Of a DNA stretch of 64,000 nt, positions 9,278-32,565 are shown one piece after another. Below the pieces are notes generated by a model. The model was not told the DNA's origin, did no database searches, and worked only from the letters and a program-made list of their open reading frames with translations. The position numbers and the translations under genes were made by a program. The stretch is from NCBI RefSeq assembly GCF_011008935.1, contig NZ_JAAIVJ010000003.1:186001-250000 (forward strand), written 5' to 3'. How positions within the stretch are numbered: the stretch's first letter is position 1; each line of letters opens with the position of its first letter. The stretch is from Tabrizicola oligotrophica (GTDB lineage: Bacteria > Pseudomonadota > Alphaproteobacteria > Rhodobacterales > Rhodobacteraceae).

Positions 9278-9361
9278 GGCCGAAAAATACCAGTTATTTG
9301 ACACATCGTCCATTCGGCTTTTCGCGGCAATCCGTCACTGTCAGTGAAAAGGGAGAGCACC
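9278..9361 (+). promoter_or_regulatory. pobR-pobA intergenic promoter region
   Basis: Contains a consensus-like -35 TTGACA at 9298-9303 reading toward pobA, though no good -10 was found at the right distance. A perfect 5+1+5 inverted repeat CACTG-T-CAGTG lies at 9336-9346, just before the GGGAG ribosome site of pobA. Both are candidates for control by the AraC regulator; unproven. Confidence 0.35.
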
Positions 9362-10531
9362 ATGCGCACACAGGTTGCCATCATCGGCGGCGGCCCCTCC
9401 GGGCTGCTGCTGTCGCAGCTGCTGAACAAGGCGGGCATTGCGACCGTGGTGCTGGAGCGCAAGAGCCGCGACTATGTGCTGTCACGCATCCGGGCCGGTG
9501 TGCTGGAAACCGGGGCGGCCGATCTGATCCGCGCCGCCGGGGCGGGCACGCGGATGGACCGCGAGGGGCATCTGCATGACGGCTGCTATCTGGCCTCGAA
9601 TGGCCGGATGTTCCATGTCGATTTCAAGGGCAGTTGCGGCAAGCAGGTGATGGTCTATGGCCAGACCGAGGTGACGAAAGACCTTTACGACGCACAGGAC
9701 GCCATAGGCGCGACGGTGATCCATGGGGCCGAGGAGGTCGCGCTGCACGATCTGACCAGCGATGCGCCTTACGTCAGCTATACCGTGAACGGCGCTGCGC
9801 ATCGGCTGGGCTGCGACTTTGTCGCCGGCTGCGACGGGTTCCACGGCGTCAGCCGTCCGTCGATGCCGGCCGAGGTCCGGCGCGAATACGAAAAGGTTTA
9901 TCCCTTTGGTTGGCTTGGGATCTTGTCGCGCACTCCACCGGTCGAACATGAGCTGATCTATGCCGCCCATGATCGGGGCTTTGCCCTTGCCTCGATGCGC
10001 CACGCCATGCTGTCGCGCTATTACATCCAGGTGCCGCTGACCGATACGGTCGAGGATTGGTCTGACGAGGCCTTCTGGGCCGAGTTCCGGCGGCGGATGC
10101 CCGAAGCCGTCGCCGCCCGGCTTGTCACCGGGCCGTCGATCGAGAAATCCATCGCGCCCCTGCGGTCCTTCGTGACCGAGCCGATGCGCTGGGGTCGGCT
10201 GTTCCTGTGCGGCGACGCCGCCCATATTGTGCCGCCGACCGGCGCCAAGGGGTTGAACCTTGCCGCCTCCGACGTGCATTACCTGTATGAAGGGCTGGTG
10301 CAGCACTACCGGCAGAACCAGAGCGCCGGGATCGACGCCTATTCCCAGCGCGCCCTTGCCCGGATCTGGCAGGCGATGCGGTTCTCCTGGTCGCTGACCA
10401 CCATGATGCACCGCTTTCCGGGGGCTTCCGACTATGACCGCCGGATGCAGGACAGCGAGCTTGCGCAGCTTGAGACCAATCCCGTCGCGCGTCGGTTGAT
10501 GGCCGAAAATTACACGGGACTGCCCTACTGA
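9362..10531 (+). CDS. pobA: 4-hydroxybenzoate 3-monooxygenase
   Basis: A 389-residue FAD- and NAD(P)H-dependent hydroxylase converting 4-hydroxybenzoate to protocatechuate, feeding the beta-ketoadipate pathway. The FAD dinucleotide motif AIIGGGPSGLLLSQLL lies at residues 7-22, then SRIRAGVLE, the DG motif GCDGFHGVSR and the second FAD motif GDAAHIVPPTGAKGLNLA. Length is exactly that of the family. The ATG at 9362 follows GGGAG; an upstream GTG at 9344 would add six residues. Ends convergently, overlapping the amidohydrolase gene by seven bases. Confidence 0.95.
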   Translation: MRTQVAIIGGGPSGLLLSQLLNKAGIATVVLERKSRDYVLSRIRAGVLETGAADLIRAAGAGTRMDREGHLHDGCYLASNGRMFHVDFKGSCGKQVMVYGQTEVTKDLYDAQDAIGATVIHGAEEVALHDLTSDAPYVSYTVNGAAHRLGCDFVAGCDGFHGVSRPSMPAEVRREYEKVYPFGWLGILSRTPPVEHELIYAAHDRGFALASMRHAMLSRYYIQVPLTDTVEDWSDEAFWAEFRRRMPEAVAARLVTGPSIEKSIAPLRSFVTEPMRWGRLFLCGDAAHIVPPTGAKGLNLAASDVHYLYEGLVQHYRQNQSAGIDAYSQRALARIWQAMRFSWSLTTMMHRFPGASDYDRRMQDSELAQLETNPVARRLMAENYTGLPY

Positions 10532-11397
10532 GCGCCCAGAATCCGCATCGCGTTGTCCTTCAGGATCAGCGGCCGCACCTCGTCCTTGAACGGGGCCTTC
10601 GCGAAAGCGTCCAGCCATTTTTCCGGCGCGATCATCGGCCAGTCGCTGCCGAACAGCATCTTGTGCTTCAAAAGGCTGTTGGCATAGCGGATCAGCGTCT
10701 CGGGGAAATACTTCGGCGACCAGCCCGACAGGTCGATGAAGACATTCGGCTTGTGCTGGGCCACCGCCAGCGCCTCGTCCTGCCAGGGAAAGGACGGATG
10801 CGCCAGAATGATCGTCATGTCGGGGAAGTCCACCGCCACATCATCGAGATACATCGGGTTCGAGTATTTCAGCCGCATGCCATTGCCGCCGCGCATCCCC
10901 GAGCCCACCCCGGTCTGCCCGGTGTGGAAGAGCGCGATGCCGCCCTCGTCGGCAATCGCCTCGTAAAGCCCATAGGCCGAACGGTCGTTCGGATAGAACC
11001 CCATCTGCGTCGGATGGAACTTGAAGCCCCGGACGCCGAAGTCGCGCATCAGCCGCCGCGCCTCGCGGGCGCCAAGCTTGCCCTTGGCCGGGTCGATGCT
11101 GGCAAAGGGGATCAGCACATCGGCATTCTCGGCGGCGATCCGCGCCACCTCCTCATTGGCATAACGCCGGTAGCCGGTCTCGCGCTCGGCATCGACGGGG
11201 AAGATCACCGCGGCGATGTTCTGGCTGCGGTAATGCGCGGCGGTCTCGGCCATGGTCGGCGGATGGGTCCAGGGCGCGCCGAAATAGGTCGCCATCGCCG
11301 CCTGCAGATCGTCATAGCCGTCATCGGCATGGCAGCCGCAGGGCTCTTCGGCATGGGTGTGAAAGTCGATGGCGCGGACCGCGGCGAAATCCACCAT
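10525..11397 (-). CDS. Amidohydrolase-2 family protein (metal-dependent hydrolase/decarboxylase)
   Basis: A 290-residue TIM-barrel amidohydrolase. Metal-ligand motifs are visible: DFHTHAEEP at about residue 11, the barrel segment GFKFHPTQMGFYPND, ILAHPSFPW and FGSDWPMI near the C-terminus. Relatives are decarboxylases or hydratases of aromatic catabolism (ACMSD/LigW/LigJ type) or lactone hydrolases. The closeness to pobA makes an aromatic-acid role plausible but not shown. The ATG at 11397 is one base after the stop of the GFA gene, so the two form an operon. Confidence 0.8.
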   Translation of the reverse strand: MVDFAAVRAIDFHTHAEEPCGCHADDGYDDLQAAMATYFGAPWTHPPTMAETAAHYRSQNIAAVIFPVDAERETGYRRYANEEVARIAAENADVLIPFASIDPAKGKLGAREARRLMRDFGVRGFKFHPTQMGFYPNDRSAYGLYEAIADEGGIALFHTGQTGVGSGMRGGNGMRLKYSNPMYLDDVAVDFPDMTIILAHPSFPWQDEALAVAQHKPNVFIDLSGWSPKYFPETLIRYANSLLKHKMLFGSDWPMIAPEKWLDAFAKAPFKDEVRPLILKDNAMRILGAQ

Positions 11398-11398
11398 C

Positions 11399-11851
11399 TC
11401 AGGCCCCCCGCAGCGCGGCAGGATCATCCTGCACCGGCGCATAGCTGGCGGTGGTTTCGGATTTCTCCGGCAGGTCGGTATGCACGAAGGGCGCAGCCGA
11501 GCGGGTGAAGATCTCGCGGCTGATCGGGAACCAGAAGCTGGGCGGGTCGAAACTGCCTGCCGCGATGCCGATCAGCTCGGGCGACAGGCCAAGGCGCCAC
11601 AGCACGTTGGAACCGCAATTCGGGCAGAACTGCGTGGTGAAGGGGCGACCGCTTTCGGTGGTAAAGGAGTAATCCTTCACCGGGCCGGACACCGTCACCT
11701 TGTCCTGCGGGAAATAGGCCGAAACACCAAAGGCCGAGCCGGTGCGCGTCTGGCAATAGCGGCAGTGGCAGACCGCCGCCTTGACCGGGGCGCCTTCGAC
11801 CCGATAGCGCAACTGCCCGCACTGGCAGCCGCCTTCGTGAATGTTGTCCAT
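11399..11851 (-). CDS. GFA-family zinc protein (Gfa/CENP-V domain)
   Basis: A 150-residue single-domain member of the glutathione-dependent formaldehyde-activating family. Zinc-binding cysteines are seen in GGCQCGQLRY (residues 7-16), CHCRYCQ (about 29-35) and FCPNCGSNVLW. The family includes Gfa but most members have no assigned substrate. First gene of a two-gene operon with the amidohydrolase; diverges from the IclR gene. Confidence 0.88.
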   Translation of the reverse strand: MDNIHEGGCQCGQLRYRVEGAPVKAAVCHCRYCQTRTGSAFGVSAYFPQDKVTVSGPVKDYSFTTESGRPFTTQFCPNCGSNVLWRLGLSPELIGIAAGSFDPPSFWFPISREIFTRSAAPFVHTDLPEKSETTASYAPVQDDPAALRGA

Positions 11852-11937: not shown

Positions 11938-11954
11938 GTTTCACCAAGTGAAAC
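11938..11954 (+). promoter_or_regulatory. Palindromic operator candidate upstream of the IclR gene
   Basis: The sequence GTTTCACCAAGTGAAAC is a perfect 7+3+7 inverted repeat ending 12 bases before the IclR start codon and 87 bases from the GFA start. A near copy lies at the 3' end of the same gene (12767-12783). Position between divergent genes and duplication point to an IclR operator for autoregulation. The binding protein is inferred. Confidence 0.6.
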
Positions 11955-11965
11955 CGGAGCCGGCG

Positions 11966-12802
11966 ATGCAGGTGAAATCCATCAATGCCCTGGCGCGGGG
12001 GCTGGAGGTCTTGCAGATCCTGCAATCCTCGGGCGCGCTGACACTGGCCGATCTGCACCGGCTGACCGGCATCCCCAAGGCCTCGCTGCTTCGGATTCTG
12101 AAAACCCTGATGGAGCGCGGGTTCATCTGGCAGCGCATGGTCGATGACGCCTGGGCACCGTCGTTTTCGCTGGCCGAACTGGCCGGCCGGATGGACCGCG
12201 AAAGCCAGCTTGTCGAGGTCGCCTCGCCGGTGCTGGCGGCGCTGACGGCCGAGATCGAATGGCCCAGCGTGCTGGCCGTGCCGCGCCTGACCCATATGGA
12301 GGTGCTGGAGACCAACGCCGCCCGCGCCTATTTCGACCAGATTGCGCTCGGTCCGCTGGGGTTTCAGGTCAACATGCTGCGCTCGGCCTCGGGGCGGGCC
12401 TTCATCGCCACCTGCGAAGCGCCGCTGCGCGAGGCGATTCTGGAAACCCTGCGCAGGTCGGACCGGCCCGGCAACCGCATGGCGCGCAGCGCGGATTATG
12501 TGGCGCAGGTGCTGGCCGAAACCCGCGCGCAGGGCTTTGGCCTGCGCGATCCGGATTTCGGCGGCGATTTCGACAGGGGCCGGGCCGAGGCGGATGACGG
12601 CCGCGAGTCGCTGGGCGTCGCGATCCGCCTCGGCCACCATGTGCCCGGCACGCTGAACATCACCTGGACGCGGCGGGTGCTGAGCCGGGGCCGCGCCATC
12701 GAGCTTCTGGTCCCGCCCGCCCGGCGCGCCGCCGAGGAGATTGCCCGCCACCTGATGCGCCCCGGCGTTTCACAGGGTGAAATCACGCCCGAAGCCGGTT
12801 GA
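11966..12802 (+). CDS. IclR-family transcriptional regulator
   Basis: A 278-residue regulator. The N-terminal winged helix-turn-helix (SINALARGLEVLQILQSSGALTLADLHRLTGIPKASLLRILKTL) spans residues 4-47. The effector-binding IclR domain includes SVLAVPRLTHMEVLETN and a LGVAIRLGHHVPGTLNI core. The ATG at 11966 gives the standard N-terminus; the open frame extends far upstream only as antisense of the GFA gene. It precedes the carboxylase operon by 51 bases, and palindromes flank the gene, so it probably controls itself and that operon. Confidence 0.92.
   Translation: MQVKSINALARGLEVLQILQSSGALTLADLHRLTGIPKASLLRILKTLMERGFIWQRMVDDAWAPSFSLAELAGRMDRESQLVEVASPVLAALTAEIEWPSVLAVPRLTHMEVLETNAARAYFDQIALGPLGFQVNMLRSASGRAFIATCEAPLREAILETLRRSDRPGNRMARSADYVAQVLAETRAQGFGLRDPDFGGDFDRGRAEADDGRESLGVAIRLGHHVPGTLNITWTRRVLSRGRAIELLVPPARRAAEEIARHLMRPGVSQGEITPEAG
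12767..12783 (+). promoter_or_regulatory. Second IclR-type palindrome, ahead of the carboxylase operon
   Basis: GTTTCACAGGGTGAAAT contains the perfect 6+3+6 repeat TTTCAC-AGG-GTGAAA and matches the palindrome at 11938-11954 in both arms and spacing. It lies inside the last codons of the IclR gene, 71 bases before the biotin-carrier start, where it could act as the operator of the downstream operon. Confidence 0.6.
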
Positions 12803-12853: not shown

Positions 12854-13312
12854 ATGCTGACGCGCGCCGAGATTGACGACATCCTGAGGCTGATCGACGG
12901 CTCGGACTTTACCGAGCTGAAACTCGAGATGGGCGATCTGAAGCTGGAGCTGCGCAAGGGGGGCCTCGCCCAGCCCTTTCATACTGGCCAAAATATCCCC
13001 GCCGGAGGCATCCAACCGCAGCCGCCGGCCCCGCCCGCAGCCGTTCCGGCCCCGGTTGTCGCCTCGGGCGGCGGGTCGGAGATTCCGGCCCCGCTGCTCG
13101 GCACCTTCTGGCATGCCCCGCGTCCCGGTGCCGAGCCTTTTGTCAGGCCGGGCGATAGTGTCGGCGCCGATACGGTCATCGGCATCATCGAGGTGATGAA
13201 GCTGATGAACTCGGTCGCCGCCGGCATCGCCGGGACGGTTCTGGAAATCACCGCCCCGAATGGCGAACTGGTCGAGCATGGCCAGTGCCTTATCCGCATC
13301 CGGCCGCACTGA
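12854..13312 (+). CDS. Biotin carboxyl carrier protein of an acyl/ketone carboxylase
   Basis: A 152-residue AccB-like carrier. The biotinylation motif is EVMKLMN, with the acceptor Lys at about residue 116, in a C-terminal biotinyl domain (SEIPAPLLGTFWHAPRPGAEPFVRPGDSVGADTVIGIIEVMK onward). The N-terminal 36 residues resemble the AccB helix. The linker at residues 41-70 is Pro/Ala-rich, and its first part (PFHTGQNIPAGG) is encoded by a copy of an intergenic repeat. Begins after AGGAGG and leads the operon; biotin carboxylase follows after one base. Since it is tied to a pyruvate-carboxylase-type transferase, it is probably not the housekeeping AccB. Confidence 0.9.
   Translation: MLTRAEIDDILRLIDGSDFTELKLEMGDLKLELRKGGLAQPFHTGQNIPAGGIQPQPPAPPAAVPAPVVASGGGSEIPAPLLGTFWHAPRPGAEPFVRPGDSVGADTVIGIIEVMKLMNSVAAGIAGTVLEITAPNGELVEHGQCLIRIRPH
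12974..13009 (+). repeat. Dispersed repeat copy inside the biotin-carrier linker
   Basis: The segment CCTTTCATACTGGCCAAA and following TATCCCC-GG-GG bases resemble 19711-19745 (CCTTTCAGACTGGCCCAAA then TATCCTCGGGG), which lies in a non-coding gap. Here it is in frame and encodes linker residues 41-52 of the carrier protein. Confidence 0.6.
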
Positions 13313-13313
13313 A

Positions 13314-14675
13314 ATGACGCCGATCCGCCGCATCTTCATCGCCAACCGGGGCGAGATTGCCGTGCGCATCATCCGCACCGCGCGGGCGCTGGGGATTGAA
13401 ACCGTGCTGGGAGTGTCGCAGACCGACCGCGACAGCCTTGGGGCGCGGCTTGCCACGCGGGCGGTTTGCCTTGGCCCCGGCCCGTCGCGCGACAGTTACC
13501 TGAAGGTGGACACCGTGATGCAGGCCGCGCTGGGCACCGGCTGCGACGCCCTGCATCCGGGCTATGGCTTCCTGTCGGAAAACCGCGATCTGGCGCTGGC
13601 CTGCGACAAGGCCGGGATCACCTTCATCGGCCCCAGCCCGGCCAATCTGGAGGCCGTGGGCGACAAGCTGACCGCCCGCAGTCACGCCGTTGCCGCCGGG
13701 GTGCCTTTGGTGCCCGGCGGCAATGCGGCAAGCCTGACCGAGGCGCAAGAGGTGGCCCGCGACATCGGCTATCCGCTGCTCATCAAGGCGGTGGCGGGTG
13801 GTGGTGGCAAGGGGATGAAGCGGGTGAACCGCCCGCAAGACCTTGCCCCGCAGCTTGATCTGGCGATGGCCGAGGCCGCCGCGGCCTTTGGCGACGGGCG
13901 GGTCTATCTGGAACGCTTCGTCACTTCCGGCAGGCATGTCGAGGTGCAGATCCTGTCGGATGGCGAGACGGTGATCCACGCCGGCGAGCGCGACTGTTCG
14001 GTGCAGCGCCGCTATCAGAAAGTGGTAGAGGAGGCCCCGGCGCCGGGTCTGTCCCCGGCCCTGCGCACCTGTCTTTGCGAGGCTGCCACGGCCTTTGCCC
14101 GCCATATCTGCTATCGCTCGCTCGGGACCGTGGAGTTCATGGTCGATGTGGACCGGGCGGCCTTCTATTTTCTGGAAATGAACGCGCGGATTCAGGTGGA
14201 GCATCCGGTGACCGAGACCATCACCGGGCTGGATCTGGTCGCCCGCCAGATTGCCATCGCCGAGGGCCGGCCCTTGGGGCTGCAGCAGGACGATATCACC
14301 CTGTCCGGCCATGCCATCGAATGCCGGCTGAACGCCGAGGATGTTGCGCATGACTTCCGCCCTTCACCGGGGCGGGTCTCGCTGGCGTGGTTTCCGGCGC
14401 TGCCGGGGCTGCGGGTGGACAGCCATATGACCAGCGGCGCGACAGTCCCGCCGCATTACGACAGCATGGTGGCCAAGCTGATCGCCCATGGTCCGAGCCG
14501 CGCCGCCGCGATTGCCACCATGGCCGAGGCGCTGCGGGTGCTGCGACTGGAAGGCATCGCCACCAACGCGCCCTTGCATGCCGCGATCATGGCCGACCCG
14601 GAGTTCGCGGCGGGCGGCGTCGATACCAATTACCTCGCGGGACTGCTGCCCCGCCTTGCCGGAGGCTGCCCATGA
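13314..14675 (+). CDS. Biotin carboxylase (AccC-like) subunit
   Basis: A 453-residue ATP-grasp enzyme that carboxylates the biotin of the partner carrier using bicarbonate and ATP. Seen: N-terminal domain IRRIFIANRGEIAVRIIRTARALGIE, the glycine-rich ATP lid AVAGGGGKGMKRV at about residues 159-171, HVEVQILSD, and the catalytic segment FLEMNARIQVEHPVTE. Length matches AccC. One base separates it from the carrier stop; its own stop overlaps the next ATG. The ATG at 13314 is preferred to 13260, which would overlap the carrier gene. Confidence 0.94.
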   Translation: MTPIRRIFIANRGEIAVRIIRTARALGIETVLGVSQTDRDSLGARLATRAVCLGPGPSRDSYLKVDTVMQAALGTGCDALHPGYGFLSENRDLALACDKAGITFIGPSPANLEAVGDKLTARSHAVAAGVPLVPGGNAASLTEAQEVARDIGYPLLIKAVAGGGGKGMKRVNRPQDLAPQLDLAMAEAAAAFGDGRVYLERFVTSGRHVEVQILSDGETVIHAGERDCSVQRRYQKVVEEAPAPGLSPALRTCLCEAATAFARHICYRSLGTVEFMVDVDRAAFYFLEMNARIQVEHPVTETITGLDLVARQIAIAEGRPLGLQQDDITLSGHAIECRLNAEDVAHDFRPSPGRVSLAWFPALPGLRVDSHMTSGATVPPHYDSMVAKLIAHGPSRAAAIATMAEALRVLRLEGIATNAPLHAAIMADPEFAAGGVDTNYLAGLLPRLAGGCP

Positions 14676-16132
14676 CCATGTCGCTGATCGACACCACGCT
14701 GCGCGACGGCAACCAGTCGAACTGGGGCGCGACGGGGCTGGACACCGCGATGATGCTGGGCATCGCCCCGGCGATGGACCGGGTGGGGTTCGAGGCAATT
14801 GACTTCACCACATCGACCCATATGGCGGTGGCGGTGCGGTTTTCGAAACAAGACCCCTGGGAGCGGCTGCGCCTGTTCCGCGCCGCCGCGCCGAAAACCA
14901 AGTTGTCTTTCCTGACCACCGGGATGCGCTTTATCTCATGGGAAACCGCCAGCCATGAGTTGATGGAATTCGCCTTCCGGCTTCTGGTCAACAGCGGCAT
15001 CGACCGTTTTGCGGTGATGGACCCGATGAACAATGTCGCCGCGATGCGGACCATGGCGGACCTCACGCGCAAGGCTGGGGGGCGCGACATCGTGGCGGCG
15101 CTGACCTTCACGCTTTCGCCGCTGCATGACGATGCGCATTTCGCCGAGGCGGCGCGCAAGCTGACCGAGGCCGGCCAGTTCGACCGACTTTACCTGAAAG
15201 ACCCCGGCGGGCTGGTGACGCCGGACCGCGCCCGCACGCTGATCCCGGCGATCGGCGCGGCCATCGCCGTGCCGCTGGAGTTTCATTCGCATTCAACCAT
15301 CGGCCTTGCGCCCTTCAGCTATCTGGAGGCCGCGGAGCTGGGTGCGCACTGCCTGCATACCTCGTCCTCCGCCGCCGCCAATGGCACCGGCCAGCCCGCC
15401 ATGACGCCGACCATCCGCAACCTGCGCGATCTGGGGCTGACGGTGGACGTCGATGACGAGGCGGTGGCCGAAATGGACGACTGGTTCACCGCGCTGGCGC
15501 AGGCCGAAGGCTTGGCGCATGGCGTGCCCGGCGAGTTCGACCGCAGCTATTTCCGCCACCAGATGCCCGGCGGCATGATGGGCACGATGAAGCGCCAGCT
15601 TGCCGAAATGAAGCGCCTGCACCTTCTGCCGCAAGTGCTGGAGGAGGTGGAGCATGTCCGCGCTGATCTCGGCTATCCGATCATGGTGACGCCGTTTTCG
15701 CAGCTTGTGGGGTCTCAGGCGCTGATGAACGTGCTGTCGGGCAAGCGCTATGAAACCGTGCCGGATGAGGTGACGCGCTATGTTCTGGGCCGGTTCGGCG
15801 CGCCCGCGATGCCGCTTGACCCACAAGTCGAGGACCGGATCAGGTCGTCGAAACGCGCGCGGGAACTGGAGGACGAGCCGCATATGGCCTCGCTCGATGA
15901 GCTGCGCGCCAAGGTCGGCCGGGGCTATTCGGACGAGGAGTTCCTTTTGCGCGCCGTGATGCCCGCCGATCAGGTCGACGCGATGAACGCCGCCGGACCT
16001 GCGCCGCGCGGCTATGATCCCCGGACGCGGGCCTTGAAATATCTGGTCGGCGAGTTGACAAGGCGGCCGACCCTGTCGGGCGTGAAGATCACCAAGCCCG
16101 GCTTTTCCCTGCAATTGAACGGAGGCCGCTGA
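14672..16132 (+). CDS. Carboxyltransferase subunit, pyruvate-carboxylase/oxaloacetate-decarboxylase-like, substrate unknown
   Basis: A 486-residue HMGL-like TIM-barrel protein with the C-terminal conserved carboxylase domain but no biotinyl domain. The start is LIDTTLRDGNQSNWG: Arg11, Asp12 and Gln15 correspond to the PC R-D-x-x-Q set. The carboxylated-Lys motif is YLKDPGG (Lys176) and the metal pair is FHSHS (His205, His207), against HTHD in PC. The pyruvate-contacting Arg of the PC LLRxxN motif is replaced by Thr (FLTTGMR). The catalytic core is thus kept but the acceptor pocket altered. Together with the carrier and the biotin carboxylase it forms a three-gene carboxylase; I infer an enolisable ketone or oxoacid acceptor other than pyruvate. 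Confidence 0.85.
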   Translation: MTMSLIDTTLRDGNQSNWGATGLDTAMMLGIAPAMDRVGFEAIDFTTSTHMAVAVRFSKQDPWERLRLFRAAAPKTKLSFLTTGMRFISWETASHELMEFAFRLLVNSGIDRFAVMDPMNNVAAMRTMADLTRKAGGRDIVAALTFTLSPLHDDAHFAEAARKLTEAGQFDRLYLKDPGGLVTPDRARTLIPAIGAAIAVPLEFHSHSTIGLAPFSYLEAAELGAHCLHTSSSAAANGTGQPAMTPTIRNLRDLGLTVDVDDEAVAEMDDWFTALAQAEGLAHGVPGEFDRSYFRHQMPGGMMGTMKRQLAEMKRLHLLPQVLEEVEHVRADLGYPIMVTPFSQLVGSQALMNVLSGKRYETVPDEVTRYVLGRFGAPAMPLDPQVEDRIRSSKRARELEDEPHMASLDELRAKVGRGYSDEEFLLRAVMPADQVDAMNAAGPAPRGYDPRTRALKYLVGELTRRPTLSGVKITKPGFSLQLNGGR

Positions 16133-16950
16133 TGCATTCCCACCCGATCCGCGCCGCGGTGTTCGACATCGACGGCACGCTGGCCATGATGGACAAGGAC
16201 AGCGGCACCTATGCTGCCCTGCCCGGCGCGGTCGAGGCGCTAGCCGCGCTCAGGGCGCGTGGGCTGCCGGTGGTGGCCTATACCAACGGCACCTTCTTTC
16301 CGCCGGCGCATTACTATCCGCTCCTCGCCGATGCCGGGCTGGTGCTGGCGCCGGGGCATATCCTGACCCCGGCCACGGTGGCGGCGCGGCAACTGGCGAA
16401 GATGGGGGTGAAGCGGCTTTTGACCATCGCCGCCGATGGCACCCGCGTGCCGCTGCGCGACGCCGGGATCGAGGTGGCGCTGACAGGTGAGGGCGGCGAG
16501 GTGGATGGCGTCATCCTCGGCTGGACCAAGGATTTCGGCGCGCAGGATCTGGAGGAGGCAGCGCAGCTTCTCTGGGCCGGCAAGCCGCTTTACGCCACTT
16601 CGATCGCGCCACATTTCGCCGGGGCCAAGGGGCGGCTTCTGGGGATTTCGGGCGCGGTGGCGGCGGCCTTGCACAACGCGACCGGGGTGAAGGCCCGGGT
16701 GTTCGGCAAGCCGGAAACCGTCGGGCTTGAGGACATCTCGGACATGCTGGGCATTCCGGCGGCCGAGATGGTGGTGATCGGCGACGACCCCAAGCTGGAG
16801 ATCGCCATGGCCCGCAAGGCCGGGGCCTTTGCCGTGGGGGTGACGACGGGCACGGTCGACGGGGCCGGGTTCGAGGCCGCCGAGGCCGCGCTGCGTGCCC
16901 ATGTCGTGCTGCCGGGGCTCGCCGGGTTGATGGCGCAGGGGTGGTGGTGA
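16132..16950 (+). CDS. HAD-IIA (NagD-like) phosphatase
   Basis: A 272-residue haloacid-dehalogenase hydrolase of the NagD/PGP type. Motif I is AAVFDIDGTLAMMD, motif II VVAYTNGT, and the C-terminal part is KPETVGLEDISDMLGIPAAEMVVIGDDPKLEIAMARKAG. A C2-type cap lies between about residues 80 and 190. ATG overlaps the carboxyltransferase TGA by one base and its TGA overlaps the ligase ATG, so it is a committed member of the operon. Its phosphorylated substrate is unknown; a phospho-intermediate or a by-product of the pathway are options. Confidence 0.85.
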   Translation: MHSHPIRAAVFDIDGTLAMMDKDSGTYAALPGAVEALAALRARGLPVVAYTNGTFFPPAHYYPLLADAGLVLAPGHILTPATVAARQLAKMGVKRLLTIAADGTRVPLRDAGIEVALTGEGGEVDGVILGWTKDFGAQDLEEAAQLLWAGKPLYATSIAPHFAGAKGRLLGISGAVAAALHNATGVKARVFGKPETVGLEDISDMLGIPAAEMVVIGDDPKLEIAMARKAGAFAVGVTTGTVDGAGFEAAEAALRAHVVLPGLAGLMAQGWW

Positions 16951-18929
16951 TGGTCGCGGAGGGCGCGCTGCTCTGGACCGCCTCCGACGCCCGCAAGGCG
17001 GACCTGAACCTGACGCAGTTCCTCGGCTGGCTGAAGGCGCGGGGTCATGGCTTTTCCGGCTACGCCGATCTGTATCAGTGGTCGATCACCGACCTTGCCG
17101 GCTTCTGGGGCGCGGTGCGCGATTACTTCGGCCTGATCCTTGAGGGCCAGCCCGAGCCGGTGCTGACCGATGCCGCCATGCCCCGCACCCGCTGGCTGCC
17201 GGCGGCGCGGCTGAACTATGCCGAACATGTCCTGCGGCACGAGACCGCGGGCGATGCCGCCCGCCCGATGCTGCACCATGTCTCGGAACTGCGCCCGATG
17301 GCCGAGATGAGCTGGGCGGAGGTCGGCGGCGCGGTGCGCAAGCTGGCCACCCGGCTGCGCGCCATGGGCATCGGCCCCGGCGACCGGGTGGTGGCCTATA
17401 TGCCGAACCTGCCGGAAACCGTGATCGCCATGCTGGCGACCACCGCGATTGGCGCCGTCTGGTCCTCGGCCGCGCCGGAGTTTGGCGCCCAGACCGTGAT
17501 CGACCGCTTTTCGCAGATCGCACCGAAGCTGGTCTTCGCCGTCAACGGCTATCGCTATGGCGGCAAGGACTTCGACCGCTCCGCCGATCTGGACCGCATC
17601 CTTGCGGCGCTGCCGACGGTCGAAACCGTGGTGATGCTCGACTATCTGTCCGGCGCCGGCATGCGGGAAACCGCCCTGCCATGGGACAGCCTCTTCACCG
17701 GCCCCGAAGTGCCGCCCGAGGCCTTCACCTTTACCCGTGTCGATACCAACCATCCGCTGTGGGTCCTGTTCACCTCCGGCACCACCGGCCTGCCGAAACC
17801 CATCACCCACGGCCACCACGGCATCGTGCTGGAACACCTGAAAACCGCCGCCTTCCATTATGAACTGAAGCCGGGACAGGCGCTTTTGTGCTATTCCACC
17901 ACCGGCTGGATGGTGTGGAACACGCTGATGATGGCGCCGCTGATGAACGGCCGCGCCGTGCTTTATGACGGCCATCCCAGCTTTCCCGATGCCCGCCGGA
18001 TGTGGCAGATTGCCGAAGAAACCCGCGCCTCGGTCTTTGCCACCTCGCCGACCTTTCTGCAGATGGTGCGCAGTCAGGGCATCGACCCGGCGCGGGAGTT
18101 TGCCCTGCCGGCGCTGGAAACCCTGCTGCTGGTCGGCTCGCCCGCGACGCCCGAAACCTTCGCCTGGGCGCAGACGGCTGTGAAACCCGACCTCTGGGTC
18201 ACCTCGCAGTCCGGTGGCACCGAATTCTGCTCCGGCACGCTGGCCGGCTCGCCACTGCTGCCCACGCGGGCCGGTGAAATTCAGGCCCCGGCGCTGGGGG
18301 TCGACGTGCGCGCGCTCTCGGAGGAGGGCGAAACGCTGATCGGTGCCGAGGGCGAGCTTGCCATCCTGAAACCGATGCCCTCGATGCCGCTCTGTCTCTG
18401 GGGCGATGCGGAGTTCGCCCGCTACGAGGCCAGCTATTTCGACACCTGGCCCGGCATCTGGCGCCATGGCGACCGGCTGCGGATGCTGGCGCATGGCAGC
18501 AGCTTCGTGCTGGGCCGCTCCGACGCCACGCTGAACCGCTTCGGCGTGCGGATCGGCTCGGCCGAGGTCTACCGCACGATGGAGGGTATCGCGGGGGTGG
18601 CCGACAGCCTCATCCTTTGTGTCGAGGATGGCAAGGGCGGCTACTGGATGCCGCTCTTCGTGCAGATGGCCGCGGGCGCCGATCTGGACGAGGCCAAGCG
18701 CCACGAAATCATCCACCGGCTGCGCAGCGAACGCTCGCCCCGCCATGTGCCGGACGAGATCATCGCGGCGCCGGAAATTCCCGTCACCCTGACCGGCAAG
18801 AAGATGGAGGTTCCGGTGCGCAAGCTGATGCTGGGTCTGCCGCTGGACAAGGCCGCCAGCCGGGATGCAGCCCGCAACCCCGCCGCGCTAGACTGGTTCG
18901 CCGACCTCGCGCGGAAGCGGCAGGCATGA
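16950..18929 (+). CDS. Acetoacetate-CoA ligase-like acyl-CoA synthetase
   Basis: A 659-residue ANL-superfamily enzyme with the length and N-terminal ACS_N-like extension (LTQFLGWLKARGHGFSGYADLYQWSITDLAGFWGAVRDYFG) of acetoacetyl-CoA synthetases. The P-loop is VLFTSGTTGLPKPITHGHHG, followed by the SQSGGTEFCSG adenylate motif, WRHGDRL and a C-terminal LTGKKMEVPVRKLM Lys region. It would adenylate a beta-keto or short branched acid and ligate CoA. Directly after a carboxylase, it fits activation of the beta-keto acid made by ketone carboxylation. GTG/ATG choices upstream exist; ATG 16950 overlaps the HAD stop. Confidence 0.88.
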   Translation: MVAEGALLWTASDARKADLNLTQFLGWLKARGHGFSGYADLYQWSITDLAGFWGAVRDYFGLILEGQPEPVLTDAAMPRTRWLPAARLNYAEHVLRHETAGDAARPMLHHVSELRPMAEMSWAEVGGAVRKLATRLRAMGIGPGDRVVAYMPNLPETVIAMLATTAIGAVWSSAAPEFGAQTVIDRFSQIAPKLVFAVNGYRYGGKDFDRSADLDRILAALPTVETVVMLDYLSGAGMRETALPWDSLFTGPEVPPEAFTFTRVDTNHPLWVLFTSGTTGLPKPITHGHHGIVLEHLKTAAFHYELKPGQALLCYSTTGWMVWNTLMMAPLMNGRAVLYDGHPSFPDARRMWQIAEETRASVFATSPTFLQMVRSQGIDPAREFALPALETLLLVGSPATPETFAWAQTAVKPDLWVTSQSGGTEFCSGTLAGSPLLPTRAGEIQAPALGVDVRALSEEGETLIGAEGELAILKPMPSMPLCLWGDAEFARYEASYFDTWPGIWRHGDRLRMLAHGSSFVLGRSDATLNRFGVRIGSAEVYRTMEGIAGVADSLILCVEDGKGGYWMPLFVQMAAGADLDEAKRHEIIHRLRSERSPRHVPDEIIAAPEIPVTLTGKKMEVPVRKLMLGLPLDKAASRDAARNPAALDWFADLARKRQA

Positions 18930-19690
18930 CGGCCGCCGAGATCTTCTCGGTCAAGGGCAAGACCGCCTTTCTCACCGGCGCGGCGCAAGGGTTGGGCCGC
19001 GCCATGGCCGAGGCTCTGGCCGAGAACGGCGCCGCCCTGGCGCTCTTTGACCGCGACGCGGACCGGCTGGAAGACACCGCCGCCGACTTGCGCCGGCAGG
19101 GTGGGAAAGTCCTGACCCTGCCGGGAGATGTCACCGACGCCCGCGCCGTCACCGCCGCCATCACCGAAACCGCCGCCCGCCTTGGCCCACTCGACATCTG
19201 CATCGCCAATGCCGGTATCTCCGACGCCCGGCCGGGCCTCCTGCATGAGATCACCGACGCCGACTGGCAGAAGGTACTCGATGTCAACCTGACCGGGCTC
19301 TTTCACACCTGCCGCGCGGCGCTTGCCGCGATGCTGCCGCAGGGCCGGGGCAAGCTCATCACCGTCGCCTCGATGTGGGGCCTCGCCGCTCCAGCCGGGG
19401 CCTTCCCGCGCCCGGCCTATGCCGCCTCCAAGGGTGCGGTTGTCAACCTTACGCGCGAAATGGCGCTGCACTATGCCGACAAGGGCATTCAGGTGAACGC
19501 GCTCTGCCCCGGCATCTTCCAGACCGAAACACGGCCCAGAGACCCCGCCGCCGCCATCGCCTATACCCCGATGGGCCGCCTCGGCCGCCCCGACGAGATC
19601 AAGGGCGCCACCCTGTTCCTCGCCTCCACCGCCTCGGATTTCGTCACCGGCACGACGCTGGTGATCGACGGCGGCGTGCTGGCGCGCTGA
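18926..19690 (+). CDS. SDR-family alcohol dehydrogenase/oxidoreductase
   Basis: A 254-residue classical short-chain dehydrogenase. Rossmann motif TGAAQGLGRAMAEAL at about residues 17-31, ANAG at about 93-96, catalytic Ser in TVASMWGL and YAASKGAVV active site; the end LVIDGGVLAR is typical. Overlaps the ligase stop by four bases (ATGA) and is the last gene of the carboxylase operon, ahead of a pair of terminator-like hairpins. Probably oxidises an alcohol to the ketone handled by the operon; substrate inferred. Confidence 0.88.
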   Translation: MTAAEIFSVKGKTAFLTGAAQGLGRAMAEALAENGAALALFDRDADRLEDTAADLRRQGGKVLTLPGDVTDARAVTAAITETAARLGPLDICIANAGISDARPGLLHEITDADWQKVLDVNLTGLFHTCRAALAAMLPQGRGKLITVASMWGLAAPAGAFPRPAYAASKGAVVNLTREMALHYADKGIQVNALCPGIFQTETRPRDPAAAIAYTPMGRLGRPDEIKGATLFLASTASDFVTGTTLVIDGGVLAR

Positions 19691-19866: not shown

Positions 19867-20187
19867 CTAGCGCCCCGTCGCCACCTGAAACACCGCGCCC
19901 TCCAGCGCCGGCGTCACGACAATCTGGCAGGTCAGCCGGCTGTTTTCCCGAGGTTCATGGGCGTTGAACTCCACTGTGTCGGCTTCGTCCTGCTTCGGGG
20001 CCGCCAGCGCGCCCTCGGGGGCCGCGATCACATAGCAATGGCAGGTGGCGCACATCGCGCTGCCGCCGCATTCGGCGATGATGCCCCGCACCCCGGCGTT
20101 GCGCGCCGGATACATCAGCGGCTCGCCCACCACCGCCGCAATCGCGCGCCGCGTGCCATCCGCCTCGATGAACGTCACCTGAACCAT
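19867..20187 (-). CDS. [2Fe-2S] ferredoxin, putidaredoxin/adrenodoxin type
   Basis: A 106-residue plant/vertebrate-hybrid ferredoxin of the class that feeds bacterial P450s. The cluster cysteines are arranged as ECGGSAMCATCHCYV and LTCQIV, that is C-x5-C-x2-C and a distal C, as in putidaredoxin. Starts after a GGGGAA site. Last gene of the P450 operon, so it is the natural electron donor for the P450 eight genes upstream. No ferredoxin reductase gene is visible in the window; a reductase must come from elsewhere. Confidence 0.9.
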   Translation of the reverse strand: MVQVTFIEADGTRRAIAAVVGEPLMYPARNAGVRGIIAECGGSAMCATCHCYVIAAPEGALAAPKQDEADTVEFNAHEPRENSRLTCQIVVTPALEGAVFQVATGR

Positions 20188-20197
20188 TGCATTCCCC

Positions 20198-20941
20198 TCA
20201 GATAAACTGCCGCCCGCCGTCGATCACCAGCGTCTGCCCGGTCATGTAGCCCGCGAGCGGCGAGGCCAGCATCAGCGCGCCGCCGACGATGTCTTCCACC
20301 TCGGCCGGCCGCTTCAGCGCCGCGCGGTCGATGCCATAGCTGCGGGCGTTCTCGATCAGGCCAAGGCTGGCCTCGGTCATGGTGAAGCCCGGCGCCAGCA
20401 CGTTCACCCGCACCCCGTCGGCGCCCATCTCCTTGGCCATGGTGCGGCTGAGGCCGATCACCGCGCCCTTGGAGGCGACATAATGCATCCATTGCGGCGA
20501 GCCGGAGAACACCGTGGCCGAGGCGATGTTGACGATCGCCCCTTTCGCGGCGCGCAGGGCGGGCGAGAAGGCCCGGCACATCTGCCAGACGCCTTTGACG
20601 TTGACCGCCATGACCCGGTCCCAGACCTCTTCGTCGAGATCCTCGAAATCGCGCCGCTCCAGCCCGCCATAGATCGCGGCGTTGTTCACCAGCACATCCA
20701 CCCCGCCCATCCGCGCCTGCGCCAGATCGGCCAGCGCGCGGCAACTCGCGGTGTCGGTCACATCGACCTGCGCGGCAAGCCCGCCGGTTGCGGCGGCGGT
20801 TTCCTCGCAGCCTGCAAGGTTCAGATCGCAGGCCAGCACCCGCGCCCCGGCCCCGGCGAAGGCCAGCGCGAAGGCGCGGCCAAGGCCCCCCGCTGCGCCG
20901 GAGACGACCACCCGTTTGCCCGACAGTCCCAGATCGGTCAT
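20198..20941 (-). CDS. SDR-family oxidoreductase
   Basis: A 247-residue classical SDR with VVVSGAAGGLGRAFALAF at residues 10-27, VNNAAIYGG, INIASATVF-type Ser region (IVNIASATVFS) and YVASKGAVIGLSRT as active site; ends LVIDGGRQFI. ATG overlaps the HD-protein stop (ATGA). It belongs to the P450 operon and would oxidise a hydroxylated intermediate. Cofactor preference and substrate are not readable. Confidence 0.87.
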   Translation of the reverse strand: MTDLGLSGKRVVVSGAAGGLGRAFALAFAGAGARVLACDLNLAGCEETAAATGGLAAQVDVTDTASCRALADLAQARMGGVDVLVNNAAIYGGLERRDFEDLDEEVWDRVMAVNVKGVWQMCRAFSPALRAAKGAIVNIASATVFSGSPQWMHYVASKGAVIGLSRTMAKEMGADGVRVNVLAPGFTMTEASLGLIENARSYGIDRAALKRPAEVEDIVGGALMLASPLAGYMTGQTLVIDGGRQFI

Positions 20942-21543
20942 GCGCCCGTCTCCATATATCGTGTCAGTTGCCGTTCCGCCCGCAGGCTGGCGGTGAACCC
21001 CTCGGCCATCGCCTTGCCCGGCGCCGTCAGGAGCCGCGGGTTCGACACCACCGTCACCATGTCGATGTAGTCGGCCAGCGACCAGTCATACCAGCCGCGG
21101 ATGATCCGCATGCCATGCGGCGTGGTGCGCCAGCCCTTGTCGGCATCCTTCATCACCGCATCGTTCAAGGACCGCGCCTCGGTCGTGGTGTCGTGCCCGT
21201 CGATGATGGCAAGGATTTCGTCGACCCGGCCCAGACCGTGCCGCGTCAGGATCTCCCGCGCGATGACGACCGAATGGCGTTCGTGTTCAAACACCAGATC
21301 GCGCCGCGTCGGGTTGCGGCCGATGGCGGCCAGCAGAAGATCGGGCGGGATACGCTTCCAGCCGACGTCATGCAGCAGGATCGCCGGCAGCACCACATCG
21401 GCCTCGGCCTCGGGCAGGGCGGCGAGCAGCGCCCTGGCGACGCCGTAGGCGACCAGCGTGTGTTCGTCATTGTTGCGCACGTCAAGGAAGGGCCGGGCCT
21501 CGTGCCACAGCACCTCGTCCTGCGGGCGCAGAAGCGCGGTCAT
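20938..21543 (-). CDS. HD-domain protein 1 with six candidate metal ligands
   Basis: A 201-residue single-domain HD protein. His28, His58-Asp59 (LLHDVGW), His87 (FEHER), His117 (IDGHD) and Asp135 (KDADKGW) form an H...HD...H...H...D set that fits a dinuclear centre. This pattern is known both from phosphohydrolases and from mixed-valent diiron oxygenases (PhnZ, myo-inositol oxygenase), which cannot be told apart by eye. It is a paralogue of the HD protein at 22986-23582, with all six positions conserved. ATG overlaps the aldehyde dehydrogenase stop; the next SDR overlaps its own stop. Confidence 0.82.
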   Translation of the reverse strand: MTALLRPQDEVLWHEARPFLDVRNNDEHTLVAYGVARALLAALPEAEADVVLPAILLHDVGWKRIPPDLLLAAIGRNPTRRDLVFEHERHSVVIAREILTRHGLGRVDEILAIIDGHDTTTEARSLNDAVMKDADKGWRTTPHGMRIIRGWYDWSLADYIDMVTVVSNPRLLTAPGKAMAEGFTASLRAERQLTRYMETGA

Positions 21544-22976
21544 CGCGGCACCTCGTAACTCAGATACATGGTCTTGTATTCCAGATAGCTTTCCACCCCG
21601 TAGCGCCCCTTCTCGCGCCCCAGCCCGCTTTCCTTGACGCCGCCGAAGGGTTCGTAATGCGAGGAGCGCTGGATGTCGTTCAGCCAGACCGACCCGGCCT
21701 CCATCCCTTCGCAGAGCGTCAGGCCGCGGGCGAGATCGCGGGTAAAGACGAAGCCGGCGAGGCCATAGCGGTTGTCATTGGCGAATTTCAAGCCCTGCCA
21801 GGGGTCATCGACCGGGCAGATCCCCAGCACCGGGCCGAAGGTTTCCTCGGTCAGCACCAGCATCTCATGGCTCGCATCGGCCACCAGTGTCGGCTGATAG
21901 TAGAAGCCGCCGTCAAAGCCGGGCCCGGTCTGGCGCTGGCCGCCGCAGAGGATGCGGGCGCCCTTGGCGCGGGCGTCGTCGACCTGAACGGCGCTGTTTG
22001 CATAGATCTTCTCGTTGACCAGCGGGCCAAGGTCGCCCTCGCCGCCGGCGGGCGCGAGGGTGAACTGCCGCACCCGCGCCAGCAGCTTTTCAAGGAAGGC
22101 CTCATAGACCGGGCGCTCGACATAGATCCGGTTCACCCGGTAGCAGAACTGGCCGGAATTGGCGAAGCCGTGGCGGGCAATCGCCTCGGCCGCCTTGTCG
22201 ATGTCGGCATCGGCACAGACGATGGCCGCCGACTGGCCGCCCAGCTCCAGCGTCACGCGTTTCATGGTCTGCACCGCGGCGGCGGCAATCGCCTTGCCCG
22301 CCGTGGTGCCGCCGGTGAAGGCGATTTTCCGCGGGACCGGATGGTTGACCAGCGCCTCGCCAATCGCCCGGCCCGCGCCGGTGACGACGTTGAACACGCC
22401 CTTCGGCAGCCCCGCCTTGTGGAACAGCTCGGCCAGAAGAAGCGTCGAGGTCGGCGTGTCGGCCGAGGGCTTGGCGACGACGGTGCAGCCCGCCACCAGC
22501 GCGGCGCCGAGTTTGAACATCAGCAGGTTCAGCGGATAGTTGAACGGCGTGATCGCCACCACCACCCCGACCGGATCGCGGGTGACGACGGTTTTCTCGC
22601 CGGGGCCGCCCGAGGTCATGGCGGCGTGCAGCCGCAGGCCTTCCTCGGCGTAGATGTCAAGAAGGTCGGCAGCGCGGTTCACCTCTTGCAGACATGCGGG
22701 CAGCGGGCGGCCAAGCTCGCGGTGCAGCGCGGTGCCGATGGTTTGGCCGGCGTCGCGCATCGCCTGCGCCAGTTTCTTTTGCAGGCGCACCCGGTCCGCC
22801 ATGGGGGTCTTGCGCCACAGCTCGAACGCGGCGGCGGCAGAGCGGATGGCGAGGTCGGCATCCTGCGCATTGCCCTGCGGCACGGTGTCGAACTGGGCGC
22901 CCGAGCGCGGATCGGTCACGGGTTGCGTGGCGCCGGTGACCGAAGCCGTCCAGGCCCCGTTGATGAACATCTCCAT
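21540..22976 (-). CDS. NAD(P)-dependent aldehyde dehydrogenase
   Basis: A 478-residue ALDH. Seen: VVVAITPFNYPLNLLMFKLGAALVAGC near residue 135, the glycine motif FTGGTTAGKAI, catalytic Glu in TLELGGQSAA, catalytic Cys in NSGQFCYRVNRIYV, and EETFGPVLGI. Closest in feel to succinate-semialdehyde/benzaldehyde/vanillin-type dehydrogenases. Nine bases after the second HD gene and overlapping the first HD gene, so it is in the P450 operon and should oxidise an aldehyde produced in that pathway. Confidence 0.92.
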   Translation of the reverse strand: MEMFINGAWTASVTGATQPVTDPRSGAQFDTVPQGNAQDADLAIRSAAAAFELWRKTPMADRVRLQKKLAQAMRDAGQTIGTALHRELGRPLPACLQEVNRAADLLDIYAEEGLRLHAAMTSGGPGEKTVVTRDPVGVVVAITPFNYPLNLLMFKLGAALVAGCTVVAKPSADTPTSTLLLAELFHKAGLPKGVFNVVTGAGRAIGEALVNHPVPRKIAFTGGTTAGKAIAAAAVQTMKRVTLELGGQSAAIVCADADIDKAAEAIARHGFANSGQFCYRVNRIYVERPVYEAFLEKLLARVRQFTLAPAGGEGDLGPLVNEKIYANSAVQVDDARAKGARILCGGQRQTGPGFDGGFYYQPTLVADASHEMLVLTEETFGPVLGICPVDDPWQGLKFANDNRYGLAGFVFTRDLARGLTLCEGMEAGSVWLNDIQRSSHYEPFGGVKESGLGREKGRYGVESYLEYKTMYLSYEVPR

Positions 22977-22985
22977 GGCCCGCTC

Positions 22986-23582
22986 CTACAGCACATGCAC
23001 TTTCAGCGCCTTGCGGGTTTCCGCCAGCGCCGCCGTGGCCATGGCCCGGCCCGGCTCGGTTTCGAATTTCGGCAGGATCTTCTCGTTGCGCCGGCAGTTC
23101 TCGGCCGGTGTCTCGCCGAACCAGTCGCAGCCCACCGCCGTGCCCGTCACCTCGTAGCGCCAGAGCTTGTCACTGTCGCGGACGATGCGGTCGTTGAGAT
23201 GGCGCGGTTCTGGCCGCGTGTCATGGCCGTCGATGATCTCGCAGACCTGCGCGATGATGTCTTCGCTCCAGCCGGTCGCGCGCAGCACCTCGGTGCCCAG
23301 CCGCACGCCCTCGGCCTCGTGCCGGTAGCGCACATCGGATTGCAGGATGTTTTCCGACCGGAAGCCTTCGGAAATGATGGTCTCCATGTCGATCGCCCAC
23401 CAGCCGATGTCGTGCAAGAGGATCGCCAGCAGGCAGACGTCGCGGTCGGCCTGCGGGAAATGCTCCAGAAGCCGGACGCACCAGTCGAAGGACAGGGGGA
23501 TATGCACATCGTTCTTGCGAGCGCGCATGTAGGGTTCGGCGGCACGCCAGACCGGGTCATAGCGCGAGAGGTCGAGGCTCAT
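22986..23582 (-). CDS. HD-domain protein 2, paralogue with six candidate metal ligands
   Basis: A 198-residue HD protein. The ligand set is His27, His57-Asp58 (LLHDIGW), His88 (YRHEA), His120 (IDGHD) and Asp138 (RDSDKLWR). It aligns over most of its length with HD protein 1 (shared LLHD-GW, -IIDGHDT, R-LND, D-DK-WR). Both copies keep the complete set, so neither looks degenerate; a heterodimer or two sequential steps are possible. The ATG at 23582 is chosen because upstream codons run into the phosphotransferase gene. Not recognised as a named enzyme. Confidence 0.82.
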   Translation of the reverse strand: MSLDLSRYDPVWRAAEPYMRARKNDVHIPLSFDWCVRLLEHFPQADRDVCLLAILLHDIGWWAIDMETIISEGFRSENILQSDVRYRHEAEGVRLGTEVLRATGWSEDIIAQVCEIIDGHDTRPEPRHLNDRIVRDSDKLWRYEVTGTAVGCDWFGETPAENCRRNEKILPKFETEPGRAMATAALAETRKALKVHVL

Positions 23583-23617
23583 GGCAAGGGTCCAACAGGT
23601 TGCGGGAAAGGCGGCCC

Positions 23618-23639
23618 CCCTCCCCACGAGGGGGGAGGG
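23618..23639 (-). other. G/C-tract hairpin between phosphotransferase and HD genes
   Basis: Arms CCCTCCCC (23618-23625) and GGGGAGGG (23632-23639) with a six-base loop lie in the 68-base gap ahead of HD protein 2. No T-run follows, so it may stabilise or segment the mRNA rather than terminate it. Confidence 0.35.
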
Positions 23640-23650
23640 AGGCGCCCGGT

Positions 23651-25462: not shown

Positions 25463-25505
25463 TTGCGTTTCCTCCCTGAAACGGACTTTTGGTTGGACCG
25501 CGCAG

Positions 25506-29394: not shown

Positions 29395-29440
29395 GGGTTC
29401 TCTTTCTTTGGGAAAACTATAGTCGGTGACCGGCAAATGT

Positions 29441-29474: not shown

Positions 29475-29616
29475 TTCGCAGGAGACCCCGGAAAACCGGG
29501 GCTGGGAGGTTCTGACGGAAAGCATGGGTCCGGCGTTTGCCGGGGCGCTGGCCTTGTGCGGCCAGTGCAGGGATGCCCCATGGCCGCAGCCTCTGGAACA
29601 GGAGTTGGCGCGGCGC

Positions 29617-31200: not shown

Positions 31201-31256
31201 ACCACCACCGGCCACGGGAGAGCCGGGTCAACCGAAACCAAACGGGAGGAACGCAG

Positions 31257-32510: not shown

Positions 32511-32518
32511 GCCAACTG

Positions 32519-32550
32519 CCCCCGGCCCGCAATCCGGGCCGGGGGTCTTT
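32519..32550 (+). terminator. Terminator-like attenuator after the binding-protein gene
   Basis: Perfect 11-bp arms CCCCCGGCCCG (32519-32529) and CGGGCCGGGGG (32535-32545) with a five-base loop, followed by TCTTT. It lies between the binding-protein stop and the permease ribosome site. It probably lowers expression of the membrane and ATPase genes relative to the binding protein. Confidence 0.75.
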
Positions 32551-32565
32551 GCAAGAGGGGCAAGG

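Follow-up and report, generated by a model that had tools for sequence, protein, structure and literature searches.

A Candidate Hpe/Acv/Hac-Type Locus for Hydroxyacetophenone Catabolism Beside a cre-Like Operon in Tabrizicola oligotrophica

Organization of the Locus

We analyzed a 64,000-nt stretch of the Tabrizicola oligotrophica genome, henceforth the window, with a focus on the operon around positions 12854–18929 of the plus strand and coverage of the neighborhood from 9344 to 35921. This tight six-gene operon encodes a biotin carboxyl carrier protein, a biotin carboxylase (BC), a carboxyltransferase (CT) of the pyruvate carboxylase (PC)/OadA type, a HAD phosphatase, an acetoacetate-CoA-ligase-like enzyme, and an SDR (short-chain dehydrogenase/reductase), and the stop and start codons of its adjacent genes overlap or abut (table 1). 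Convergent with it lies an operon that resembles the cre genes and includes a two-subunit dikinase and a cytochrome P450, and on its 5' side lie genes for an amidohydrolase and PobA. What we observed, namely the gene content, the homologies, the conserved residues, the linkage, and the co-occurrence, leads us to regard this as very probably a locus for hydroxyacetophenone breakdown like those of the Hpe, Acv, and Hac systems, in which the acceptor of the carboxylase would be a phospho-ketone.

Table 1. Features in and around the carboxylase locus (positions in the window)
Feature	Position	Strand	Evidence or remark
PobA, 4-hydroxybenzoate 3-monooxygenase	9344..10531	+	TIGR02360 equivalog, 659 bits (cut-off 539)
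Amidohydro_2 protein, candidate HpeF-like beta-ketoacyl-CoA hydrolase	10525..11442	-	PF04909, 157 bits
GFA-family (formaldehyde-activating) gene	11399..11851	-	Between amidohydrolase and IclR; recurs in several relatives
IclR-type regulator of carboxylase operon	11948..12802	+	PF09339
Biotin carboxyl carrier protein, HpeC-like	12854..13312	+	PF00364, 57.7 bits; biotinyl motif EVMKLMN
Biotin carboxylase subunit	13314..14675	+	PF00289/PF02786/PF02785; start ATG at 13314
PC/OadA-type carboxyltransferase, 486 aa	14672..16132	+	PF02436 + PF00682 (HMGL-like)
HAD-IIA (NagD-like) phosphatase, HpeD-like	16132..16950	+	PF13344/PF13242, TIGR01460-type
Acetoacetate-CoA-ligase-like enzyme, HpeE/AcsA1-like	16950..18929	+	TIGR01217; alternative start GTG at 16941
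SDR dehydrogenase	18926..19690	+	PF13561/PF00106
2Fe-2S ferredoxin, probable P450 electron donor	19867..20187	-	PF00111; also in cre-like operons elsewhere
SDR dehydrogenase of cre-like operon	20198..20941	-	PF13561; 56% identical to SDR of Rhodococcus cre-type plasmid operon
HD-domain protein, probable phosphohydrolase	20938..21543	-	PF01966; 46% identical to Rhodococcus cre-type HD protein
Aldehyde dehydrogenase of cre-like operon	21540..22976	-	PF00171, 500 bits
Second HD-domain protein, 5' boundary approximate	22986..23726	-	PF01966; 38% identical to Rhodococcus HD_R2
Dikinase subunit with swivel phospho-His domain (CreH/HpeH type)	23651..25462	-	PF00391; NF006150, 1006 bits
Dikinase ATP-grasp subunit (CreI/HpeI type)	25506..26570	-	PF01326, 377 bits
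CreJ-like cytochrome P450	26567..27823	-	50% identical to Rhodococcus cre-type operon P450
BTAD (SARP-like) regulator of cre-like operon	27949..29436	-	PF03704

A sequence-only reading of this DNA had recognized a separate carrier, BC, and PC-type transferase followed by a CoA ligase, and the open reading frames bear this out: all four are intact on the plus strand and overlap or abut. That reading also placed the ligase in the acetoacetate-CoA ligase group, with which we agree given its score against the acetoacetate–CoA ligase model TIGR01217 (691 bits, cut-off 521) and its nearest solved structure, the acetoacetate-CoA ligase 4wd1 (614 bits). Absent from it were the HAD phosphatase within the same span and the operon SDR, as well as the dikinase encoded 7 kb farther downstream, PobA, and the amidohydrolase resembling HpeF; of these, the phosphatase and the SDR, together with the convergent kinase/P450 operon, decide the interpretation. 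Scans for promoters and terminators returned nothing above chance level.

The Carboxylase Family

The CT matches the PYC_OADA domain model at 106.7 bits (cut-off 27). To place it among its relatives we scanned 84,980 species genomes, which yielded 422 related CTs, and kept the best 80 of the 422. A HAD phosphatase is encoded directly after the CT in almost every relative whose sequence extends far enough, as is the NagD-like protein directly 3' of the CT in the window (16132–16950), and in most alpha- and betaproteobacterial relatives the IclR gene is kept beside the carboxylase. The operon SDR is retained in the carboxylase operons of loci L023–L025, L030, L032, L034, L035, and L040, and also in L053 (52% identity). 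A two-subunit dikinase is found near 38 mapped carboxylase loci, where the usual order is kinase, kinase, carrier, BC, CT, phosphatase; by kind of protein this agrees with the gene order published for hpeHICBAD and acvABCDEF (PMC9618137). At 10 mapped carboxylase loci the dikinase belongs to a cre-like operon. Comparison of the window with one six-gene cluster of the former order, from a SYK-6-like genome, gave identities of 54% for the CT, 64% for the BC, 45% for the carrier, 37% for the phosphatase, and 46–47% for the kinase subunits. The CT value lies within the level of about 45–55% or more that we took to mark the family, and it refers to this genome rather than to the sequences of Rhodococcus rhodochrous GD02 or Aromatoleum EbN1.

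By protein family, the published hpe gene order is matched on a plasmid of Rhodococcus sp. JS3073, where two kinase genes are followed by those for carrier, BC, CT, phosphatase, CoA ligase, and amidohydrolase. All eight of these genes have homologs in the window, among them the CoA ligase (41% identity) and the amidohydrolase (54%), the latter being the last gene of the JS3073 cluster. The window amidohydrolase is also 79–81% identical to proteins encoded near the CoA ligase in L023, L037, and L143, and gene order makes it a candidate HpeF-like hydrolase. By homology the window thus appears to hold a counterpart for every Hpe step. The PobA gene adjoins that of the amidohydrolase, and pcaGH-type dioxygenase genes are present on the same contig (G000:C3:26642-27815).

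Not all relatives are linked to a dikinase. In 19 mapped carboxylase loci without an adjoining dikinase, a Tm-1-like/UPF0261 protein is encoded within about 10 kb (L023–L025, L037, L039, L043, L045–L052, L054, L055, L067, L144, and L145), and no mapped carboxylase locus has both a UPF0261 protein and a dikinase. These loci include two strains that we believe to be bisphenol A degraders, P. putida YC-AE1 and Sphingomonas bisphenolicum pBAR1. The solved structure nearest to the UPF0261 protein is 9mpy (578 bits), which is probably MarK, so that the UPF0261 proteins are probably single-component kinases of the MarK type. MarK, a single-component kinase of Novosphingobium, is mentioned in PMC13101465. 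The UPF0261 protein encoded in the window's own genome was considered as an alternative kinase and set aside, as it shares just 32% identity with those linked to carboxylases and lies in a different setting.

Four other alphaproteobacteria (L016–L019) encode distant CTs, 35–40% identical, which are accompanied by a carrier and, in three of the four, by a BC. No matching phosphatase or kinase was found near these CTs, and they may belong to biotin carboxylases that use another acceptor.

Residues of the Carboxyltransferase Active Site

An alignment of 90 CTs shows that the catalytic residues D12, Q15, K176, H205, and H207 are invariant and that Thr83 occupies, in 89 of them, the position of the pyruvate-contacting arginine of OadA and PC subunit B. 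The sequence-only reading had correctly noted K176, H205/H207, and the threonine; the replacement is real, but it characterizes the family at large and is not peculiar to the window protein. Three residues past Thr83, R86 is invariant among the 90 CTs where OadA and PC subunit B have asparagine, and it is a candidate new substrate contact. The same reading had also noted FHSHS in place of the HTHD of PC. We reject the HxHS motif as distinctive or as a mark of new chemistry because OadA shares it: the OadA structure 2nx9 reads HCHST, and structure 5ks8 reads HAHAT.

The Convergent cre-Like Operon and Its Kinase

The operon at 19867–27823 has the order P450, ATP-grasp subunit, swivel subunit, HD protein, aldehyde dehydrogenase, HD protein, SDR, ferredoxin, and so combines a CreJ-like P450, a CreHI-type dikinase, an SDR, an aldehyde dehydrogenase, and a ferredoxin in one unit. 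For comparison we used Rhodococcus cre-type operons, Corynebacterium glutamicum being represented by P450 structures alone. The best solved matches of the P450 are 5xjn/7ccf and 5gwe (about 425 bits; the next match has 251), which we take to be CreJ structures, and the best match of the ATP-grasp subunit is 9goj, the crystal structure of HpeI. The SDRs of both operons gave only generic matches to solved structures, and the first HD protein gave none at an E value of 0.1. Rhodococcus cre-type operons include a ferredoxin reductase gene, whereas none is present among the genes at 19867–27823; the reductase may be supplied from elsewhere.

In a maximum-likelihood tree of the kinases, the window kinase groups among 14 cre-associated kinases with 100/100 support, apart from 36 of the hpe/acv type; a few long branches, JS3073 among them, are unplaced. 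The dikinase linked to the carboxylase is therefore of the Cre clade and not of the Hpe clade, and it is the only dikinase in the genome. The assignment of the carboxylase does not depend on the kinase clade: carboxylases of this kind are served by MarK-type as well as by Hpe-type kinases.

The convergent layout of the window recurs in eight other loci (L026, L029–L032, L034, L035, and L040), and in L059 the genes for P450, kinase, HD protein, SDR, carrier, BC, and CT all run in the same direction up to the end of the contig within the CT. Culturable relatives that share the window layout include Pararhodobacter marinus and Zhengella mangrovi. Among 395 genomes of the window's family, the dikinase is encoded in 12 and the carboxylase in 6, and all 6 are within the 12 (hypergeometric probability 1.8e-10, relatedness ignored). 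Two relatives hold the carboxylase and the cre operon at separate genome sites (L027/L146 and L028/L147). Given the co-occurrence, the recurring layout, and the single dikinase, the carboxylase in this group appears to depend on the Cre-type kinase.

Ahead of the P450 gene, the BTAD regulator is kept in L059 and L146–L148. Beyond the cre-like operon, the window encodes a GMC oxidoreductase that resembles choline dehydrogenase and an ABC transporter of the branched-chain amino acid type (29524–35921); both the oxidoreductase gene and that for the substrate-binding protein are kept at that place in L146–L148, and the transporter may import the aromatic substrate. In Mesobacterium pallidum, a remnant of a carboxylase operon comprising an SDR, a phosphatase, a 154-residue CT match, and an IclR gene lies beside the cre-like operon (L148:15113-18503). 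Carrier and BC were not found in this remnant; genes for another carrier, BC, CT, and ligase lie together elsewhere in that genome (L038).

Proposed Pathway and Alternatives

The reactions proposed here follow by analogy from the assayed homologs HpeHI, HpeCBA, and HpeD and from the roles proposed for HpeE and HpeF. The dikinase (23651–26570, minus strand) would phosphorylate the phenolic hydroxyl, and the carboxylase (12854–16132) would load its biotin carrier using ATP and bicarbonate, whereupon the CT would deprotonate the methyl group beside the carbonyl of 4-phospho-acetophenone and carboxylate it. The HAD phosphatase would strip the phosphate after carboxylation. The acetoacetate-CoA-ligase-like enzyme, a candidate HpeE/AcsA1-like 3-oxo-3-(4-hydroxyphenyl)propanoate-CoA ligase, would form the CoA thioester, which the amidohydrolase would split into 4-hydroxybenzoate and acetyl-CoA, and PobA would pass the 4-hydroxybenzoate to the protocatechuate pathway. 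The operon SDR is a candidate secondary-alcohol dehydrogenase with a role like that of Hped1 in EbN1.

The sequence-only reading had the acceptor as a ketone or a similar enolizable compound giving a beta-keto acid that is then activated with CoA. That sequence of events is supported, as it matches the systems described for HpeCBA and HpeE and for HacABC and AcsA1; the part that finds no support is a small free ketone as acceptor. HpeCBA, the one enzyme of this kind assayed for a 4-phospho-ketone requirement, carboxylates 4-phospho-acetophenone and 4-phospho-acetovanillone but not free acetovanillone or 4-hydroxyacetophenone, and HpeD dephosphorylates the carboxylated product (PMC9618137). Production of HpeCBA in E. 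coli did not succeed. It is accordingly very improbable that acetone, butanone, cyclic ketones, or other unphosphorylated ketones are carboxylated in the window system for acetoacetate activation, even though the ligase scores above the acetoacetate–CoA ligase equivalog cut-off and the CT lacks the pyruvate arginine: the operon has a fixed phosphatase gene, most loci have a linked kinase, the neighboring PobA points to an aromatic product, and AcsA1 of EbN1 is likewise "acetoacetyl-CoA ligase-like" yet serves with HacABC (XccBCA) in 4-ethylphenol breakdown (PMC10715001). A negative outcome would have been likely in assays with acetone, butanone, and free ketones. Nor are biotin-type ketone carboxylases without precedent; that reading had placed the known acetone and acetophenone carboxylases in other, ATP-dependent types. 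HpeCBA (PMC9618137) and HacABC (PMC10715001) have already been described, and the combination of a biotin-dependent ketone carboxylase with an acetoacetate-ligase-like enzyme is therefore not new. The generic annotation as an oxaloacetate decarboxylase or pyruvate carboxylase subunit reflects the best generic hidden Markov models, PC subunit B and OadA, but we give it almost no credence: the CT scores far under the named equivalog cut-offs (e.g., 283 vs. 756 for oadA), Thr83 replaces the pyruvate-binding arginine, and another gene, on G000:C10, has a full PYC_OADA domain within a 1,159-residue open frame of pyruvate carboxylase size. Homolog biochemistry, linkage, and residues together lead us to reject both small-ketone and pyruvate acceptors, and the presence of a carrier and BC does not fit a biotin-free, ATP-dependent acetone or acetophenone carboxylase with hydantoinase-type subunits. 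A methoxylated ketone such as acetovanillone, in place of 4-hydroxyacetophenone or 4-ethylphenol, is an unlikely natural substrate. The GFA gene might hint at methoxylated substrates, as it would be helpful if the methoxyl group were removed later; however, GFA proteins have many roles, the adjoining PobA acts on 4-hydroxybenzoate, and HpeCBA favors the unmethoxylated ketone about 10:1 (PMC9618137).

The sole dikinase belongs to the Cre clade and forms part of an almost complete cre-like operon, so that 4-alkylphenols are probably accepted by the locus as well. The recurring layout and the co-occurrence suggest that 4-alkylphenols such as 4-ethylphenol are phosphorylated first, oxidized to the phospho-ketone, and then carboxylated. 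We tentatively consider, as a serious possibility short of an even chance, that both operons together constitute a single pathway for 4-ethylphenol and similar 4-alkylphenols, in which the phosphate added by the Cre-type kinase would be kept through benzylic hydroxylation by the P450 and oxidation by an SDR to give 4-phospho-acetophenone for the biotin carboxylase and would be removed after carboxylation. The chances are nearly balanced, on the other hand, that two independent pathways merely adjoin, with the cre genes serving 4-cresol and the carboxylase operon serving 4-hydroxyacetophenone with a borrowed cre kinase, so that the P450 never feeds the carboxylase. This alternative competes with the joint 4-alkylphenol pathway only and leaves the identity of the carboxylase untouched. 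The cre-like operon does occur alone in L146 and L147, and it lies beside genes for toluene-4-monooxygenase, which converts toluene to 4-cresol, on two Rhodococcus plasmids; moreover, the similarity of its SDR to that of a stand-alone Rhodococcus operon (56% identity) means that a role in ethylphenol oxidation is not required. What speaks for a joint pathway is that the adjacency recurs in the eight other loci and that the P450, kinase, HD, SDR, and carboxylase genes of L059 are co-directional in one apparent operon.

Several points weigh against assigning the locus to hydroxyacetophenone catabolism. Its kinase being of the Cre clade, action on 4-hydroxyacetophenone is putative; the amidohydrolase gene is on the opposite strand, 5' of the operon, and its HpeF role is based on gene order; and the convergent arrangement of the two operons does not imply co-regulation. 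The assignment of the six-gene cluster to Sphingobium SYK-6 (acvABCDEF) is likewise provisional.

With the small-ketone carboxylase removed as a false lead to a new class, a phospho-ketone is indicated as the right substrate. The carboxylase is of an already published kind, and the less usual variant lies in its being paired with an operon that encodes a P450 and a kinase of the Cre clade. In the literature that we searched we found no description of a phosphate-tagged aerobic route for 4-alkylphenols or of this pairing; the work on MarK, Wohlbrand 2008, Du 2016, and figure S5 of PMC9618137 lay outside that search and may already note it. 4-Alkylphenols are lignin-derived monomers and pollutants. 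If true, the joint pathway would mean aerobic, phosphate-tagged degradation of these compounds in Rhodobacterales and relatives and would explain why a phospho-ketone carboxylase is paired with a 4-cresol-type kinase.

Comparison with Known Systems

The Cre system of C. glutamicum (CreHI, CreJEF, CreC, CreD, and CreG) shares with the window the CreJ-like P450, SDR, HD proteins, aldehyde dehydrogenase, and ferredoxin, and the window dikinase falls in the Rhodococcus cre-type clade; in contrast to the window, Cre has no carboxylase module, and its reductase gene has no counterpart in the window's operon. MarK of Novosphingobium aromaticivorans, which acts as the kinase in a closely similar pathway, is a single-component enzyme, a type not used in the window locus. 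The Acv system (acvABCDEF) of Sphingobium SYK-6, to which we provisionally assign the SYK-6-like genome, has homologous kinase, carboxylase, and phosphatase, with a CT 54% identical, but its own cluster is without a CoA ligase and the nonhomologous VceA/VceB carry out the last steps.

HacABC, AcsA1, Hped1, and TioL1 of Aromatoleum aromaticum EbN1 likewise comprise a biotin carboxylase, an acetoacetyl-CoA-ligase-like enzyme, and an alcohol dehydrogenase that serve 4-ethylphenol. This system differs in being anaerobic and without a P450, its first oxidation being due to EmhCF and its CoA ester being formed by a predicted thiolase. From the Hpe system of R. rhodochrous GD02, a strain that does not grow on 4-ethylphenol, the window differs in the distribution of its genes over three transcription units, in the added IclR regulator and SDR, and in its Cre-clade kinase within a cre-like operon. 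Both systems have a pair of dikinase subunits, a three-part carboxylase (carrier, BC, and CT), a NagD-like phosphatase, a CoA synthetase resembling acetoacetate ligase, an amidohydrolase at the place of HpeF, and PobA downstream (PMC9618137).

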